Shown here piece by piece: positions 6,763-12,484 of a stretch of DNA of 48,003 bases. The stretch's first letter is position 1; every line of letters starts with the position of its first letter. Where the stretch lies: NCBI GenBank assembly GCA_000998135.1, contig LCCV01000003.1, positions 70,392-118,394 on the forward strand. Reading direction: 5' to 3'. Below the pieces are notes generated by a model that was given only the letters and a program-made list of their open reading frames with translations, was not told the DNA's origin and made no database searches. Made by a program: the position numbers and the translations under genes. The DNA is from Parcubacteria group bacterium GW2011_GWA2_42_14 (GTDB taxonomy: Bacteria; Patescibacteriota; Minisyncoccia; Sungbacterales; GWA2-42-14).

Positions 6763-6815
6763 ATAGTTTGGTTTTATATAGAAAACCTTTATTATCAATC
6801 TACTCTTGTATATAG

Positions 6816-6824
6816 TTATCCACA
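6816..6824 (+). promoter_or_regulatory. Possible DnaA box
   Basis: TTATCCACA matches the consensus exactly but stands alone between ftsK and the lexA-like gene. It may be chance. Confidence 0.3.
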
Positions 6825-6832
6825 GTTGTTAA

Positions 6833-6856
6833 AAAATGGCTTAATAAGGCCATTTT
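6833..6856 (+). terminator. Hairpin terminator after ftsK
   Basis: An 8-bp stem AAAATGGC/GCCATTTT with an 8-nt loop, running into ATTTATTATT. The T run is imperfect. Confidence 0.55.
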
Positions 6857-6864
6857 ATTTATTA

Positions 6865-6892
6865 TTGACGTCTACTTTTGTTCATATATAAT
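6865..6892 (+). promoter_or_regulatory. Promoter of lexA-like gene, predicted leaderless
   Basis: TTGACG (6865-6870), 16-bp spacer, TATAAT (6887-6892). The ATG at 6899 is again 7 nt after the -10 box. I did not find a convincing palindromic LexA operator here. Confidence 0.8.
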
Positions 6893-6898
6893 AGAAAA

Positions 6899-7549
6899 AT
6901 GGGTAATGTATCAATTAAAAATTTGACCCCAAAACAGAGAAAAGTCCTTAATATGATTTATGAAAGTGTGAATTCAGCTGGCTATCCGCCGTCTCTTGCT
7001 GATTTGAGAACTGGATTAGGGGTTTCTTCAAATCAGTCAGTTTTAAACTTCCTTGACGCCCTTAAGAATAAGGGTTTTATTAGTCGGCAAAAAGGCGAGG
7101 CCAGGGGTATTAAAATTCTTCCTTTGGGTTTTAAAATTCTTGGCAAAGGTCATTTGCTACAAGTAGCCGGAGAAAGTTCGGCCGGTCCTTTCATTGAATC
7201 TTATTCAGATTCATTTCGCTGGATAACTTTACCCGGGACCGTTTTACAGAATGAAGAAGTTAAACAAGCCCAAGACGAAGTTTTTGTTATCAAGGTGCAT
7301 GGCGATTCAATGATAAATGCCGGTATAGACGACGGAGATTCGCTTTTAGTCAAAAAAACGCGCGAGTTTAGGTCAAAAGACATTGTTGTCGCGAGAAACG
7401 ACGACGGGACAACAGTAAAAAGATTCATCGCCGAAAGCGACGGCCGAGCATATTTAAAACCGGAAAACCCCGCTTATAAAATAATCCCTATTTATGAAAA
7501 CACCATTTTTGAGGGCAAAGTAATTTTAAATTTAAGCAAAGTAAAATAA
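6899..7549 (+). CDS. lexA: LexA-type self-cleaving repressor (S24 peptidase)
   Basis: A 216-residue protein with LexA architecture. Residues 8-70 form the winged-helix DNA-binding domain (LTPKQRKVLNMIYE, YPPSLADLRTGLGVSSNQSV). The autocleavage bond is probably Ala90-Gly91 in LLQVAGE. The catalytic Ser137 is in GDSM and the catalytic Lys174 in TTVKRF. In the LexA family this represses SOS genes until RecA filaments trigger cleavage; recA lies 4 kb downstream. The gene ends 4 nt before the restriction-modification gene and has its own strong promoter, so the two are probably co-transcribed. It could be the general SOS repressor or a dedicated controller of the R-M island. The start at 6899 follows from the promoter; an upstream in-frame start at 6878 would lie within it. 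Confidence 0.88.
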   Translation: MGNVSIKNLTPKQRKVLNMIYESVNSAGYPPSLADLRTGLGVSSNQSVLNFLDALKNKGFISRQKGEARGIKILPLGFKILGKGHLLQVAGESSAGPFIESYSDSFRWITLPGTVLQNEEVKQAQDEVFVIKVHGDSMINAGIDDGDSLLVKKTREFRSKDIVVARNDDGTTVKRFIAESDGRAYLKPENPAYKIIPIYENTIFEGKVILNLSKVK

Positions 7550-7553
7550 TTTT

Positions 7554-9416
7554 ATGGCTAATGAAAGAAAAACAGAAATCATTGTCCGTTCTCACTTTGA
7601 GCAATTCAAAGAAATTGTTCACATAGAAGAACAGTTATCGGATAATCCCAAAATTGATAAACTTTTAAAAACCGCTTCAAAAAAAGGAAGTGGTAAGGGG
7701 AAACCTGAATTTCTGATAACTTTTTCTGGAAATTCTGATTTAATTATTGTGGTTGAATGTAAAGCAGAAATAACAAGACACGAAAGTTCTACGAAAGACA
7801 AATTCTCCGAATATGCAGTTGATGGCGCGTTATTATACGCCTCCTATCTCTCAAAGGAATTTGATGTTTTAGCAATCGGAGTAAGCGGTCAAACAAAACA
7901 ACAACTAAATGTTTCTCATTTTTTACAACTTAAAAATGAAAGAAAAGCAGTTTCGATTTTTGGAAGTAAACTTCTTTCGGGAAATGATTATTTAGACGGA
8001 TACTTAAAAAGTCCTGAAAAACTTAGACAGGACTACAACATACTTTTAGAATTTACTAAGCAATTAAATGACACCCTACATTCTTATAAAATTTTGGAAA
8101 GCCAGCGCAGTTTATTAATCAGTTGCGTTTTAATTGCTTTAGAAAATAAAGCATTTAAAACCGCTTATCCTCTATTCGGCTCAACAAATGAGAAAGACAC
8201 AGCAGACGAAAAAGGGAAAAAAGTTGAAAACGCAGCAAAAGAATTAGCAAATTATTTAGTTGATACGGTTAGCAATGAATTGAAAAACGCAAACATTAAG
8301 AGCGATAGACTTGACAATTTGAATATTCAATTCGGTTTCATAAGAACAGATACATCCCTATCAACGAAGAAAGATGTTTTAAAAAATCTTATTAAAGACA
8401 TTGATGACAATATAAACTCATTTATTAAGACACACAAATATTGTGATGTTCTCGGACAGTTGTATGTTGAATTTCTTCGTTATGCAAATAGCGACAAAGG
8501 GTTAGGAATAGTTCTTACACCACCGCATATTACAGAATTATTTTCTGATTTAGCGCAGGTCAATAAAAATAGCATCGTTTATGATAATTGCGCTGGCACA
8601 GGCGGTTTCTTGATAAGTGCGATGAAAAAAATGATTGCAGATGCCGAAGGCGACCAAGCAAAAATTAAAGAAATTAAAAAAAATCAATTGTTCGGAGTAG
8701 AATATCAAGCGCATATTTTTGCTTTGGCTGTTTCAAATATGTATATCCATCAGGACGGAAAAACAAATATTTTAAATGGAAGTTGTTTTGATGAGGATAT
8801 AATACAAGAAATAAAAACAAAAAAGCCAACCGTTGGTTTCTTAAATCCACCCTATAAGGGTGATAAGAAAAAAGATGTCGATGAACTTGAATTTGTGTTA
8901 AATAATTTAGAATGTTTGGTTGATGGCGGAACTGGTATTGCCATTGTGCCAATGCAAAGCGCTTTAGCGCAAACAGGGAAAGTGTATGAAATTAAAAAGA
9001 AACTTTTAGAGAACCACACATTAGAAGCAGTGTTGTCAATGCCAAACGAATTATTTACAAATTCAAAAGTAAATGTTGTTTCTTGTGTAATGATTTTCAC
9101 GGCTCATAAACCGCATCCCAAAAATAAAGAAACTTATTTTGGTTATTACAAAGATGATGGATTTGTGAAAAGAAAAATTCAGGGAAGAACTGATGTTTAT
9201 GGAAAGTGGGAAAATATTAAAGATAAATGGGTAAATTATTACTTAAACAGGAAACAAGAACCAGGATTTAGCGCAAATAAAGTAGTTGCAGCATATGATG
9301 AGTGGTGTGCAGAGGCATACATGGAAACCGACTATTCTAAGTTAACACAAAACGATTTTTTAAAAACCATAAAAGAATATATTTTGTTTAATGAGTTATT
9401 TCTAAAAGATGAATAA
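7554..9416 (+). CDS. Fused nuclease/N6-adenine methyltransferase, BcgI-like R-M subunit
   Basis: A 620-residue protein that appears to join cleavage and methylation. The N-terminal part carries a PD-(D/E)xK-like signature: Asp62, then Glu68 and Lys70 in VVECKAE. The C-terminal half is an HsdM-type adenine methyltransferase: helical segment, SAM motif I DNCAGTGGFL at about residue 344, and catalytic motif IV NPPY at about 430. The next gene is a specificity subunit overlapping by 8 nt. No separate HsdR helicase is present. This two-gene arrangement matches type IIB/IIG systems such as BcgI, where the RM polypeptide pairs with an S subunit and cuts outside the site. The nuclease assignment rests on a short motif. 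No Shine-Dalgarno is visible; translation may depend on the upstream repressor gene. Confidence 0.85.
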   Translation: MANERKTEIIVRSHFEQFKEIVHIEEQLSDNPKIDKLLKTASKKGSGKGKPEFLITFSGNSDLIIVVECKAEITRHESSTKDKFSEYAVDGALLYASYLSKEFDVLAIGVSGQTKQQLNVSHFLQLKNERKAVSIFGSKLLSGNDYLDGYLKSPEKLRQDYNILLEFTKQLNDTLHSYKILESQRSLLISCVLIALENKAFKTAYPLFGSTNEKDTADEKGKKVENAAKELANYLVDTVSNELKNANIKSDRLDNLNIQFGFIRTDTSLSTKKDVLKNLIKDIDDNINSFIKTHKYCDVLGQLYVEFLRYANSDKGLGIVLTPPHITELFSDLAQVNKNSIVYDNCAGTGGFLISAMKKMIADAEGDQAKIKEIKKNQLFGVEYQAHIFALAVSNMYIHQDGKTNILNGSCFDEDIIQEIKTKKPTVGFLNPPYKGDKKKDVDELEFVLNNLECLVDGGTGIAIVPMQSALAQTGKVYEIKKKLLENHTLEAVLSMPNELFTNSKVNVVSCVMIFTAHKPHPKNKETYFGYYKDDGFVKRKIQGRTDVYGKWENIKDKWVNYYLNRKQEPGFSANKVVAAYDEWCAEAYMETDYSKLTQNDFLKTIKEYILFNELFLKDE

Positions 9417-10371
9417 ACTAACTCCACTTAAAGAATTATTTACGCCGGTGTATGGTGTTAACCTTGAATTGGTGAACATTGAAGAATGTGAAAAAAGTGA
9501 TTACAACAGTATCCGTTTTGTTTCACGGACAGAAGTCAAAAACGGAGTATCGGCGTACGTAAAAAGAATGGACGATGTTGTGCCAAATCCGGCGCATACA
9601 ATTTCTGTTGCAGTAAGCGGTTCTGTTTTATCCTCTTTCTATCAGGATAAAGAATATTATAGCGGAAGGGATTTATATTATTTACTTCCAAAAAGAAAAA
9701 TGAACAAAGAGGAAATGATATTTTACTCTCTTTGTATCAAAGCAAATAAGTATAAATATAATTACGGCAGAGCAGCAAACAAAACATTAAAAGATATTTT
9801 ACTTCCCGATGAAATGCCAAATGATTTTAAGAAAATAACTTTTACTCAAATTTCCATTCCGTCTGATAAAGGAATACTTAAAAAACAATTTGATCTGAAT
9901 ACAAAAAATTGGAAATCATTTACAATTGAAGAGTTATTTAAAATTCAAAAAGGAGAAAGATTAGTAGAATACGAAAGAATTGAAGGGGAAACACCATTAA
10001 TAACAGCAACTTCTGAAAATAACGGAGTTGCTTCGTTTATTTCTTATGATGACTTCAAAAACGAAAAAAAGATTTTTGAAAACAAAATTACAATTGATAT
10101 GTTTTGTAATGTATTTTTTCACAACTATAAATATTTTTCGGATGATAATATTCATACTTTAATACCGAAATATAATAATAGTAGCCCATATGTTTTTTTA
10201 TTTATAACGACTATACTAAAACAGTTAAAATATAAATTTAATTTCGGAAGACAACTTAGATTAGAGAAAATAAAAAAAGAATGTATTAAACTTCCGTCTG
10301 AACATGGGCAGCCCGATTTTGAATTTATGGAAAACTATATTAAGTCAATGCCTTATTCAGCATCTCTATAA
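9409..10371 (+). CDS. Restriction-modification specificity (S) subunit
   Basis: A 320-residue S subunit that should choose the DNA target for the preceding RM protein. It has two half-repeats. The first ends with KYKYNYGRAANKTLKDILLP (about residues 108-127), the second with KYKFNFGRQLRLEKIKKECI. These are the conserved segments that follow target-recognition domains. The second recognition domain starts near NWKSFTIEELFKIQKGERL. It overlaps the methyltransferase stop by 8 nt (ATGAATAA), which indicates translational coupling. The length is short but suits a BcgI-type S subunit. Two more S fragments lie downstream, so the specificity gene appears to have been rearranged. Confidence 0.88.
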   Translation: MNKLTPLKELFTPVYGVNLELVNIEECEKSDYNSIRFVSRTEVKNGVSAYVKRMDDVVPNPAHTISVAVSGSVLSSFYQDKEYYSGRDLYYLLPKRKMNKEEMIFYSLCIKANKYKYNYGRAANKTLKDILLPDEMPNDFKKITFTQISIPSDKGILKKQFDLNTKNWKSFTIEELFKIQKGERLVEYERIEGETPLITATSENNGVASFISYDDFKNEKKIFENKITIDMFCNVFFHNYKYFSDDNIHTLIPKYNNSSPYVFLFITTILKQLKYKFNFGRQLRLEKIKKECIKLPSEHGQPDFEFMENYIKSMPYSASL

Positions 10372-10376
10372 TTGAT

Positions 10377-10619
10377 ATGATAAAAGAAGCATTAAAACTT
10401 GAACATATTGCTATTGTAATCATAACTGGTGTAACAAATGGGTATTATCCTCATTGGAAACTTAATACCGGATTTAGAAGAAATGAAATAAGCGACATTA
10501 GTTTGCAACATATTGCCCAATCCGTTGCAAAAGGAATAACTCAAGGAGAAGTAATTGAAGAAATAAAAAATAAGGAAACTCTTACTGGTTGGTGGAAACT
10601 TAAAATTCAAGATGAATAA
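10377..10619 (+). CDS. Small protein with internal repeat, in R-M island, unknown function
   Basis: An 80-residue protein starting 5 nt after the S gene. It seems to hold two copies of one short pattern: ITGVTNGYYPHWKL in the first half and ITQGEVIEEI...TGWWKL in the second (Gly, then a Trp-hydrophobic-Lys-Leu strand). No membrane segment or signal peptide. Its stop overlaps the ATGAATAA at 10612, the same 8-nt junction seen between the RM and S genes. It may be an accessory regulator of the R-M genes; that is inference from position. Small proteins of this style next to R-M genes are familiar to me, but I cannot name the family. Confidence 0.6.
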   Translation: MIKEALKLEHIAIVIITGVTNGYYPHWKLNTGFRRNEISDISLQHIAQSVAKGITQGEVIEEIKNKETLTGWWKLKIQDE

Positions 10620-10803
10620 ATATGTTGCTCTGTTTTTAGTTACCATTCTGAATTTAGAACAATATCGTTACAATTATGGTCGCAAGTGCAGTCAAGATAG
10701 GATGAAGCAGATAAAAATAAAATTGCCTGCCAAAGACAGACAGCCAGATTTTAATTTTATGGAATATTACATTAAATCGTTGTCGTACTCATCAAACTTG
10801 TAG
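10612..10803 (+). pseudogene. C-terminal remnant of a second S subunit
   Basis: 63 codons that align with the last 60 residues of the intact S subunit: YVALFLVTIL against YVFLFITTIL, YRYNYGRKCSQDRMKQIKIK against YKFNFGRQLRLEKIKKECIK, and QPDFNFMEYYIKSLSYSSNL against QPDFEFMENYIKSMPYSASL. The whole recognition domain and everything before it is missing. The ATG is probably an internal codon of the parental gene. It may act as a recombination partner or be dead. Confidence 0.75.
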
Positions 10804-10845
10804 TAAATTACATTAATAATTTTTTTTAGATATATTTTTTTATAT

Positions 10846-10971
10846 GTGTTAACAAAACCATGCTATCCAAAAATTGCCGATTTAATTCGCCAATCCCACG
10901 AAGCCCGCAAAAAAGCGAAAGAATTACTGGAAGAAGCCAAACAAAAGGTCGAAAAATTAATTGAACAATAA
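10846..10971 (+). pseudogene. C-terminal coiled-coil tail of another S subunit
   Basis: In frame, about 40 codons read ...YPKIADLIRQSHEARKKA, then KELLEEAKQKVEKLIEQ and a stop. This basic, heptad-like tail is typical of the end of type I HsdS proteins and differs from the tail of the two fragments upstream. No start or recognition domain is present. It is a second independent remnant, which marks the locus as a place of S-gene turnover. Confidence 0.6.
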
Positions 10972-11047
10972 ATAGTGTTTAACATTTTTGCGTTAGCTTT
11001 GTTGCGCGTAGAGTCTTATAATAATGGCGTTATTTAGTGGTTAAGAA

Positions 11048-11395
11048 ATGGCTTTCGATAGCAAAAAAATAGTTTATATCATTGTCGCAACCATTTTACT
11101 TGCGGTTTTTTCTTTTTATCTATTTTATCAATTCCGTTTCTATGTTCGCTTTCCGGAATTGATTTTGGAAGTTCCGGCAGGGGATATGGCCATAAGCGAG
11201 CCCCATATTGAAATTAAGGGCAGGATTGATACCGAAACTGTCTTGACTTTAAATGGGCGTCCGATATACATTAAGGAGACCGGTGAATTTCAGGAAAGAA
11301 TTAACCTCGGTGACGGCCTTAATGCCTTGGAGTTTGAGGCCCAAAATAAAGCCGGAAAAATAACTAAAATAATTAGATATATATTGGTTAAATAA
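11048..11395 (+). CDS. Membrane-anchored Ig-like domain protein, unknown function
   Basis: A 115-residue protein. Residues 7-28 form one membrane segment (IVYIIVATILLAVFSFYLFY); the rest is predicted outside the membrane. Residues 40-112 show the pattern of a bacterial Ig-like/big-domain fold: PHIEIKGRIDTETVLTLNGR, then ETGEFQERINLGDGLNALEF and a GKITKIIRYI strand. Such domains usually bind other envelope proteins or glycans. A TATAAT box at 11017-11022 suggests a leader of about 20 nt with no clear Shine-Dalgarno. It precedes recA by about 75 nt across a palindromic repeat and may be co-transcribed with it. Confidence 0.75.
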   Translation: MAFDSKKIVYIIVATILLAVFSFYLFYQFRFYVRFPELILEVPAGDMAISEPHIEIKGRIDTETVLTLNGRPIYIKETGEFQERINLGDGLNALEFEAQNKAGKITKIIRYILVK

Positions 11396-11410
11396 CTTTC
11401 TCTAATTAAA

Positions 11411-11461
11411 CACTAATTTTATTCGTGAATATTCGCGAATTTAATTCGCGATTGATTAGTG
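11411..11461. repeat. Palindromic repeat, GATTGATTAGTGATT family, before recA
   Basis: CACTAAT (11411) pairs with ATTAGTG (ends 11461), with internal TTCGCGAA words. The 3' end abuts the recA start region. Related copies lie before secF (28014-28098) and the b-subunit gene (39596-39676). Confidence 0.65.
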
Positions 11462-11470
11462 ATTAATGGC

Positions 11471-12484
11471 ATGGAAAAAGACGACAAACAATCAAAATTA
11501 AAAGCCCTGGAAGAAGCGGTTAAAGACATTCAGGGAAAATACGGAGAGGGTTCAATTATGAAATTGGGCGACGCGCGCAGGGTTGATGTTGATACTATAC
11601 CAACCGGTTCATTTTCTTTGGATTTGGCTTTGGGTGTGGGCGGAGTTCCGCGTGGACGAATTATTGAAGTTTTTGGTCCGGAGTCATCGGGAAAAACAAC
11701 TTTAGCTCTTCATATTGTGGCCGAGGCGCAGAAGAAAGGCGGGTTGGCCGCGTTTGTTGACGCGGAGCATGCTTTGGACCCGGAATACGCCAAAAAAATC
11801 GGAGTAAAAATAAATGACCTTTTGATTTCCCAGCCCGATACCGGAGAGCAGGCGCTGGAAATTGTTGAATCGTTAATTCGGTCCGGTTCCATTGACGTCA
11901 TTGTTATTGATTCGGTCGCCGCTCTTACTCCGCAGGCGGAAATTGAAGGAGAAATGAGTCAACAGCATATGGGACTGCAAGCCAGATTAATGTCTCATGC
12001 CCTTCGGAAACTTACCGCGATTGTCGGCAAGTCAAGAACAGTTGTAATTTTTATCAATCAAATCCGTATGCAGATTGGCGTATTTTTTGGAAATCCGGAA
12101 ACAACTCCCGGAGGAAAAGCGTTAAAGTTTTATTCTTCGGTAAGAATTGATATTCGCCGGGCCGCGCAAATTAAAAAAGGCGAAGAGGTGATTGGAAACC
12201 GCGTAAAAGTAAAAATCGTGAAAAATAAAGTTGCGCCTCCCTTTAGAACCGCGGAATTTGATATTTTTTACAATCAGGGAATTTCTCCGGAAGCGGAAAT
12301 TATAAATCTTGGCGAGAAATATGAAGTTGTAAAAAAATCAGGAGCAAGTTATGCGTTTGGGAGCGTTAAATTGGGACATGGTTTTGATTCAGCGCGAAAA
12401 TATTTGCAAGATAACAAAAAAGTGATGGATGAGATAAAGAAGAAAATTAAGGAAAAACTGGCCGAAATGCAAACAGGAGAGTAA
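11471..12484 (+). CDS. recA: RecA recombinase
   Basis: A 337-residue protein catalysing strand exchange and co-protease stimulation of LexA. The sequence shows the MAW-like start ([12 protein letters not shown]), Walker [10 protein letters not shown] at 69-77, the catalytic Glu and VDAEHALDP loop, Walker B ([12 protein letters not shown]), loop L1 ([15 protein letters not shown]) and L2 ([20 protein letters not shown]). The C-terminal domain is present but lacks the long acidic tail. I chose ATG 11471; a GTG at 11459 would add four residues that lie in the repeat. No Shine-Dalgarno or clear -10 box is seen; the upstream repeat occupies the region. With the LexA-type protein it makes an SOS pair. 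Confidence 0.97.

Follow-up and report, generated by a model that had tools for sequence, protein, structure and literature searches.

The window analysed here is a 48,003-nucleotide (nt) stretch of the Parcubacteria group bacterium GW2011_GWA2_42_14 genome, and the element under study is a lexA gene that stands directly in front of a Type IIG restriction-modification (R-M) unit, all three genes lying on one strand (Table 1). The original prediction, made from the sequence alone, had placed a LexA-type repressor 4 nt before a fused nuclease-methyltransferase, with recA about 4 kb away, and both statements hold: the repressor scores 129.8 bits against the TIGR00498 lexA model (cut-off 110.95), the 4-nt gap separates its stop from the next start at 7554, and recA (11459-12484) lies 3.9 kb past the lexA end. 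The lexA ATG is at 6899; the open reading frame (ORF) list instead begins at an earlier TTG, 6878. The protein matches both Pfam LexA_DNA_bind (PF01726) and Peptidase_S24 (PF00717), the solved structures that it matches best are LexA repressors, and it retains the Ala-Gly cleavage site and the Ser/Lys dyad. The second gene matches the PADLOC model for a Type IIG restriction endonuclease-methyltransferase (PDLC03608, 535 bits), and the methyltransferase part of its product resembles solved Type I M subunits; the third matches a Type II specificity subunit (PDLC03594, 108.5 bits). Model matches thus predict a single chain holding both nuclease and N6 methyltransferase, accompanied by a specificity subunit, as in Type IIG systems, and the pair may be BcgI-like, a label that none of the search results gives. 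Behind the specificity gene lies an 80-aa ORF (10377-10619) without a family match, which may be part of the inserted segment described below.

Table 1. Features of the lexA cassette and its promoter region, in window coordinates.
Feature	Position	Strand	Basis
DnaA-box-like TTATCCACA, upstream of the lexA promoter	6816..6824	+	exact box match
Hairpin of 10 pairs resembling a terminator, between ftsK and the lexA promoter; travels with the cassette	6833..6856	+	near-identical stretch before the G004 lexA
lexA promoter: -35 TTGACG (6865-6870), 16-nt spacer, -10 TATAAT (6887-6892)	6865..6892	+	consensus match; identity with G004
Candidate LexA operator GTCTACTTTTGTTCAT in the promoter spacer; degenerate form of the relatives' inverted repeat GACCAAATGGTC	6870..6885	+	
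lexA: winged helix-turn-helix (wHTH) and S24 autoprotease, 216 aa, Ala-Gly site, Ser and Lys present	6899..7549	+	TIGR00498, Pfam
Type IIG restriction nuclease-methyltransferase, N6_Mtase, NPPY	7554..9416	+	Pfam, PADLOC
Type IIG specificity (S) subunit; overlaps the M gene at its start	9409..10371	+	Pfam, PADLOC

The cassette stretch is A+T-rich, with a G+C content of 0.29-0.36 across the four kilobases 7001-11000 against 0.41-0.42 on both flanks. It sits between ftsK and a Glucodextran_B-like gene, inside the order ftsK, Glucodextran_B-like gene, recA, which recurs in 11 of the 14 relatives whose ftsK regions we fetched and differs in the other 3. Neither lexA nor kin of the window R-M genes follows ftsK in any of the 14, as labelled by blastp against the window proteins, a labelling that an unrelated R-M gene would escape. 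The original prediction had named as contrary evidence a repressor at this site without the R-M genes, together with the lack of an operator at its promoter; the relatives have neither repressor nor R-M genes there, and an operator-like element exists. The proximity of recA to lexA looks accidental and is best explained by the insertion site, so it is no evidence of a functional link. TTCGCGA-like palindromes recur upstream of recA (11395-11459; TTCGTGAATATTCGCGAATTTAATTCGCGATT) and differ from the LexA operators described here; recA is possibly under another regulator.

The lexA promoter is the best consensus match in the region (11 of 12 positions). The original prediction had called it the only good one; two other sites match at 10 of 12, and the 17 promoter-like sites in the region are not above the shuffle expectation (19.8). 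A look for an operator near 6865-6898 had also been proposed; an operator-like element does lie in the promoter spacer and is well formed in relatives, and the window copy is degenerate. The lexA transcript is probably leaderless. Within this genome we found no further copy of the promoter/operator stretch at up to 2 mismatches, and therefore none at recA.

Comparison with G004, a genome of the same family as the window genome, speaks for a promoter that travels with its gene. A stretch of 30 consecutive bases over the lexA promoter, ATTGACGTCTACTTTTGTTCATATATAATA, is identical in G004 at an unrelated locus, where lexA is located behind a gene reading as atpD; G004's own ftsK-gdB-recA locus is intact. 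The two LexA proteins are 91% identical, compared with 73% for ftsK and 88% for recA. G004 also shares most of the hairpin and the DnaA-box-like element before lexA, and its 4-nt junction between lexA and the downstream gene is identical to that of the window. This downstream gene encodes a different Type IIG enzyme, with HSDR_N_2 nuclease and N6_Mtase domains and only 26% identity over 95 aa to the window enzyme. The best explanation is that the segment from about 6770 to 10371 is a LexA-controlled Type IIG cassette that appears, from these computational comparisons, to be mobile.

The linkage of this LexA subtype to R-M genes extends well beyond these two genomes. Searching the window LexA against 383 genomes of the class identified 22 with the subtype (E up to 1e-30), and R-M genes adjoin lexA in all 21 that could be assessed, the remaining locus (L274) being at a contig end; the linkage, whose conservation the original prediction had proposed to check, is conserved. 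The 30 bases identical in G004 and the linkage in 21 of 21 make the lexA promoter more than a chance match. In 17 genomes, G004 and 16 others, lexA precedes a Type IIG enzyme of G004's family; the window genome, also one of the 22, has the separate Type IIG gene of Table 1. The arrangement varies in detail: the Type IIG gene comes after a 137-aa ORF at L276 and is cut by the region end at L264; the lexA neighbours at L262 are an SPPY-motif gene and a TdeIII endonuclease; lexA is fused to an N6_N4 methyltransferase at L278; and it is followed at L280 by an unassigned ORF and a DPPY-motif gene, the methyltransferases of L262 and L280 being named by motif only. Kin of the window enzyme itself occur in 8 of the 383 genomes. 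Directly upstream of this kin, G086 and G221 carry another, distant S24/LexA-like repressor with a Cys-Gly site (L123 1046-1681; L077 3-512), and a self-cleaving type of repressor has therefore joined the window enzyme family more than once.

We also retrieved 20 loci as unfused lexA, going roughly down the list of scores (one, L135, proved to be a fusion cut by a contig end); an R-M-type gene lies directly downstream in ten (L129, L130, L132, L137, L138, L141, L142, L143, L144 and L145). These genes are a methyltransferase, a Type IIG enzyme, Vsr with a C5 methylase, or DpnI, several of them named by motif or similarity only. At L130 (4340-5107), DpnI (PF06044, E 2e-77), a nuclease of methylated DNA, directly follows LexA, and at L143 (753-2879) genes for a Vsr mismatch endonuclease and a C5 methylase come after LexA.

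The window genome encodes four further LexA proteins, five in all, and each of the four is a full LexA fused to a DNA methyltransferase, which answers the question of a second lexA raised at the outset. A sixth S24 match, L006, is partial and reads as signal peptidase I; it was not counted as LexA. Across the class, 217 of the 383 genomes have a LexA match, 160 of them above the cut-off, and frames of at least 400 aa make up 87 of the 150 matches listed in that search, from which the frame lengths were taken. LexA-methyltransferase fusions are common in Patescibacteria, a group of ultra-small bacteria. All 35 fusions scanned contain LexA_DNA_bind and S24 domains, joined to N6_N4_Mtase in 28, a C5 methylase in 3 and N6_Mtase/Eco57I in 3. 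A scan of named genomes with a fusion query gave at least 534 confirmed loci, and the 80 of them that were kept belong by title mostly to Parcubacteria and Microgenomates groups; three are Omnitrophota bins, and single bins of other phyla may be contamination. The named loci came from a fusion query and the 30 further loci of the class search were its best scorers, so fusions are over-represented in our sample. In phages and plasmids, 32 and 136 records respectively match parts of the query, and none covers 80% of it.

The genes beside the fusions include restriction endonucleases of varied families. Among 72 fusions of the named loci, the gene after the fusion is convergent in 60 (59 within 60 nt), on the same strand in 10 and lacking in 2. 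Pfam families among 70 such genes are MvaI_BcnI (13), TaqI (4), MamI (3), BglII (2), Bsp6I (2), BsaWI (2) and MunI (1), with endonuclease VII/His-Me and MutH types as well; PADLOC, among the 25 of 95 families listed, assigns an MTase_II model to 16 and also finds several REase_II families. On the upstream side, 64 genes yielded no restriction-endonuclease family among the 25 of 90 families listed, and one Type I specificity gene. The unannotated partner of the L007 fusion gave a predicted structure (pLDDT 77) whose best folds are PvuII, with a modest TM score of 0.47-0.49 by query. When three partner ORFs were compared by sequence with solved structures, two had no match; the L008 partner matched a translocator (E 0.01) ahead of PvuII (E 0.6), and Pfam PvuII at E 3.5e-4, below the cut-off.

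Several of these neighbourhoods hold further genes. Beside the L002 fusion, the PvuII-like gene stands divergent to another methyltransferase gene (L008 4243-5094), one that carries no LexA. The L004 fusion has as its convergent partner a gene (L010 5040-6017) that forms a family with genes at L168, L169, L174 and L202, with conserved PDSDG and LDME motifs; this family has no Pfam, PADLOC or PDB match and is not an obvious endonuclease, and its structure model (pLDDT 41) was set aside. Upstream of one fusion, L159 4003-4923 matches CBASS-type oligonucleotide cyclases in PADLOC, a possible defence island.

We assembled 141 lexA genes to look at their promoters, keeping one of each set that shares its first 100 residues and leaving out rows with an upstream run of N; L033 and L212 gave no gene. 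An exact 6-mer direct repeat of period 11 is present in 98 of the 141 promoters, against a mean of 3.9 and a maximum of 10 in shuffled sets; at periods 8-10 and 12-15 the count never exceeds 6; an earlier, smaller set had the repeat in 40 of 69. By frame length, it occurs in 79 of 102 genes of at least 340 aa and in 19 of 39 shorter ones. An 11-bp repeat reversed relative to the gene stands close to the start codon, not in the -35/-10 spacer, at L166, L178, L179, L185, L187, L188, L211, L218, L219, L228 and others.

The half-sites of the direct repeat (TTCGG, TTCTA, TTCGA, TTAGG and a few others) covary with the recognition helix, SxSTxHxH. A last half-site base A goes with helix residue F, Y or H in 56 of 56 cases and G with Q, E or D in 53 of 53 (109/109), and Ala at the start of the helix accompanies a T at the fourth base in 92 of 96. 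In this set 24 of the 141 rows had no repeat by a loose rule, one without a shuffle control of its own, and 8 of the other 117 were dropped for last bases that differ or are C/T; Lys is the helix residue in the three rows with C. When the tree was built with the DNA-binding domain left out, the first two helix/operator traits each change 25 times, and there are 25 independent pairs over all branches.

The helix of window-type LexA proteins is a different one, SSNQS, and the promoter spacers of relatives contain an inverted repeat, for example CCGACCAAATGGTCGG. GAC-N6-GTC, a motif chosen after the sequences were inspected, occurs in 10 of 22 promoters of the window subtype (the window itself is not among them) and in none of 20 shuffle sets. 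A motif-free test for inverted repeats is weaker, with 7 of 22 at arm length 6 (shuffles mean 0.64, max 3) and 8 of 22 at arm length 5 (1.9, max 6).

Within the window genome, the fusion operator has 17 places at up to 2 mismatches, compared with 5 for a reversed-pattern control, and four of them precede the four fusions. Four of the other 13 were opened, including the sole one within 1 mismatch and two with repeated half-sites, and all four lie inside reading frames. No copy within 2 mismatches lies at recA or, in the four fetched fusion regions, near partner genes; a quite different operator would be missed by this search. The fusions L001 and L004 have an operator in common and L002 and L003 have common half-sites, which makes it likely that R-M systems regulate one another within a cell.

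An exact DnaA-box-like sequence (TTATCCACA or TGTGGATAA) lies within 150 nt upstream of 85 of the 141 lexA genes, compared with 0-1 in each of 10 shuffle sets. In the named loci it precedes 43 of 79 lexA genes and 28 of 573 other ORFs, a contrast that is overstated because many other ORFs lie inside operons. The window has 3 boxes where 0.3 are expected, and the box is therefore not confined to lexA genes. Of 69 measured distances from the box to the first forward half-site, 12 are 2 nt and 38 are 12-15 nt, about one helical turn apart. DnaA may participate in lexA control.

These computational results, from the identity of LexA and its linkage to R-M genes through the mobility of the lexA cassette to the operators, their covariation with the recognition helix and the conserved cleavage apparatus, lead us to a model for its function. 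The original prediction had offered, beside a tie between restriction and the SOS response, the alternative of a dedicated S24 controller, and this alternative is strongly supported by the conserved linkage, the cassette-carried promoter, the operator/helix covariation and the four further fusions. We consider it probable that LexA serves class-wide in Patescibacteria as a dedicated R-M controller that represses its own R-M unit and is relieved by RecA-triggered cleavage. LexA dimers would bind between -35 and -10 and keep the lexA, nuclease-methyltransferase and specificity genes low. Damage, including restriction of under-methylated host or incoming DNA, would generate RecA filaments, LexA would cleave itself and the promoter would open. 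In the Type IIG unit nuclease and methyltransferase would then rise together, and LexA remade from the same transcript would close the promoter. In the fused form, the commonest seen here, LexA would repress its own methyltransferase gene, with the partner tail-to-tail outside the repressed unit; cleavage of the fusion would yield more methyltransferase and protect the host, a feedback from damage to methylation. Since the operator stands before the methyltransferase but usually not before the partner, damage by the partner nuclease would raise protection. On sequence grounds repression at these operators is well supported; LexA would presumably repress in vivo as well, and we infer the direction of the physiological effect. 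That derepression would be RecA-triggered is suggested by the cleavage residues: Ala-Gly, Ser and Lys are kept in 35 of 35 fusions checked, and Ala- or Cys-Gly, Ser and Lys in 34 of 34 other LexA proteins.

Several observations weigh against this model. The perfect repeat is not found at the window's own operator position (6870-6885), where the element is degenerate, and 43 of the 141 promoters have no exact 6-mer repeat of period 11. Of the independent covariation pairs, only 5 fall on well supported (starred) branches; all agree, and 5 cannot reach p 0.05. More than half of the 70 fusion-adjacent genes match no named restriction-endonuclease family, and 3 are methyltransferases. At nine of the 20 loci retrieved as unfused lexA, the gene directly downstream is not recognisable as an R-M gene, and at L139 and L232 the downstream gene reads as dinB-like, so some LexA proteins may keep other roles. 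In the window enzyme's family just 3 of 8 genomes have an S24 gene directly upstream (G000, the window genome, together with G086 and G221), 4 have none and 1 contig begins inside the enzyme gene; the repressor therefore accompanies R-M genes, and the enzyme family does not need the repressor. The cleavage residues, finally, could be kept for reasons other than RecA dependence.

Among other explanations, the one that fares best is that LexA is only a DNA-binding and dimerisation head that holds methyltransferase or R-M levels constant by autorepression, its self-cleavage playing no role. Methyltransferases with an N-terminal helix-turn-helix (HTH) that repress their own promoters are known (from excerpts of PMC3874152), and the operators are clear in 98 of 141 promoters. 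We nonetheless think it unlikely: Ala-Gly, Ser and Lys are invariant throughout the fusions checked and, with Cys-Gly allowed, throughout the other LexA proteins. An establishment timer like the C proteins, in which the nuclease is limited in a new, unmethylated host and the signal is establishment damage and not general SOS, would suit a cassette that looks mobile and a lexA that is the first gene of IIG units. It is harder to reconcile with the fused form, whose partner is usually convergent and outside the repressed unit, and with operator copies that stand, in the four fetched fusion regions, only before the fusions; we regard it as improbable. Some phage S24 repressors respond to partners other than RecA, and a unit whose S24 protein is cleaved by such a factor, for example a phage or plasmid product, would sense invaders directly; the LexA-type cleavage signature throughout and the presence of recA in the genome make this very improbable. 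That the window gene is an ordinary SOS master repressor, or host lexA, next to R-M genes by chance agrees with a bona fide LexA above the curated cut-off and recA nearby, and is scarcely credible given that the ftsK loci of 14 relatives lack lexA, the subtype is linked to R-M genes in 21 of 21 assessable genomes, no further copy of the promoter stretch exists in the genome at up to 2 mismatches and no fusion-operator copies within 2 mismatches lie at recA, 4 of the 13 non-fusion places having been opened; we rejected it on the ftsK-locus comparison and the subtype linkage.

The window LexA has the two domains of the LexA/SOS family (TIGR00498; PF01726 and PF00717), its cleavage site and its catalytic residues, and differs in that the operators here stand at the R-M unit and not at recA, that LexA is often fused to a methyltransferase and that the genome holds five LexA proteins. 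A C protein is a small single-domain HTH regulator and is not known to carry an autoprotease. The window LexA resembles the C proteins of Type II R-M systems in being a dedicated HTH regulator carried with R-M genes and predicted to control their promoter, and is set apart by its 216 aa, S24 domain and wHTH; it could sense damage. EcoRII and SsoII are examples of autoregulatory methyltransferases. Type II R-M control, as described in excerpts of PMC3874152, involves C proteins, which bind by helix-turn-helix and coordinate a switch, and methyltransferases that repress their own promoters through an N-terminal HTH. Autoregulatory methyltransferases such as Ecl18kI repress their own gene through an N-terminal DNA-binding part (same excerpts, PMC3874152). 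In the fusions described here an entire LexA, self-cleavage residues included, takes the N-terminal place, and the methyltransferases joined to it belong to at least three families. BcgI-like systems of Type IIG have the same nuclease-methyltransferase chain and specificity subunit; here they are headed by lexA 4 nt upstream.

The motifs bound by LexA are highly diverse and include direct repeats, among them apparently one from Patescibacteria (excerpts of PMC7739468 and PMC8565304); direct-repeat operators are reported for some LexA groups, for which the former cites Sanchez-Osuna 2017. The titles and abstract openings that we surveyed describe neither a fusion of LexA with a methyltransferase nor an R-M system under LexA control; the 2017 article by Sanchez-Osuna, Barbe and Erill (Environ. 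Microbiol.) is outside that scope, and priority for parts, operators above all, may lie with this Patescibacteria damage-network study. The arrangement is real, conserved and, so far as we have seen, undescribed, a variation on the themes of LexA and the R-M controller.

A broader picture, which we hold only tentatively, is that LexA was turned from SOS master into a portable, damage-cleavable R-M controller. The fusions would be self-correcting: under-methylated host DNA would be cut, RecA would become active, the fusion would be cleaved and derepressed, and methylation would be restored. Shared operators would make a damage-induced regulon of the R-M systems in one cell, and DnaA boxes one helical turn apart from the operators would couple this regulon to replication. 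How cells avoid killing themselves when methylation lags behind restriction is a long-standing question. Here a damage sensor would be placed on the R-M controller, in many cases on the methyltransferase itself, so that the feedback could be tested with a single protein, and the covariation of recognition helix and half-site offers a natural set of LexA-DNA specificities. The finding also touches on the question why lexA, common as it is in candidate-phyla genomes, shows no sign of controlling recA in the window genome.

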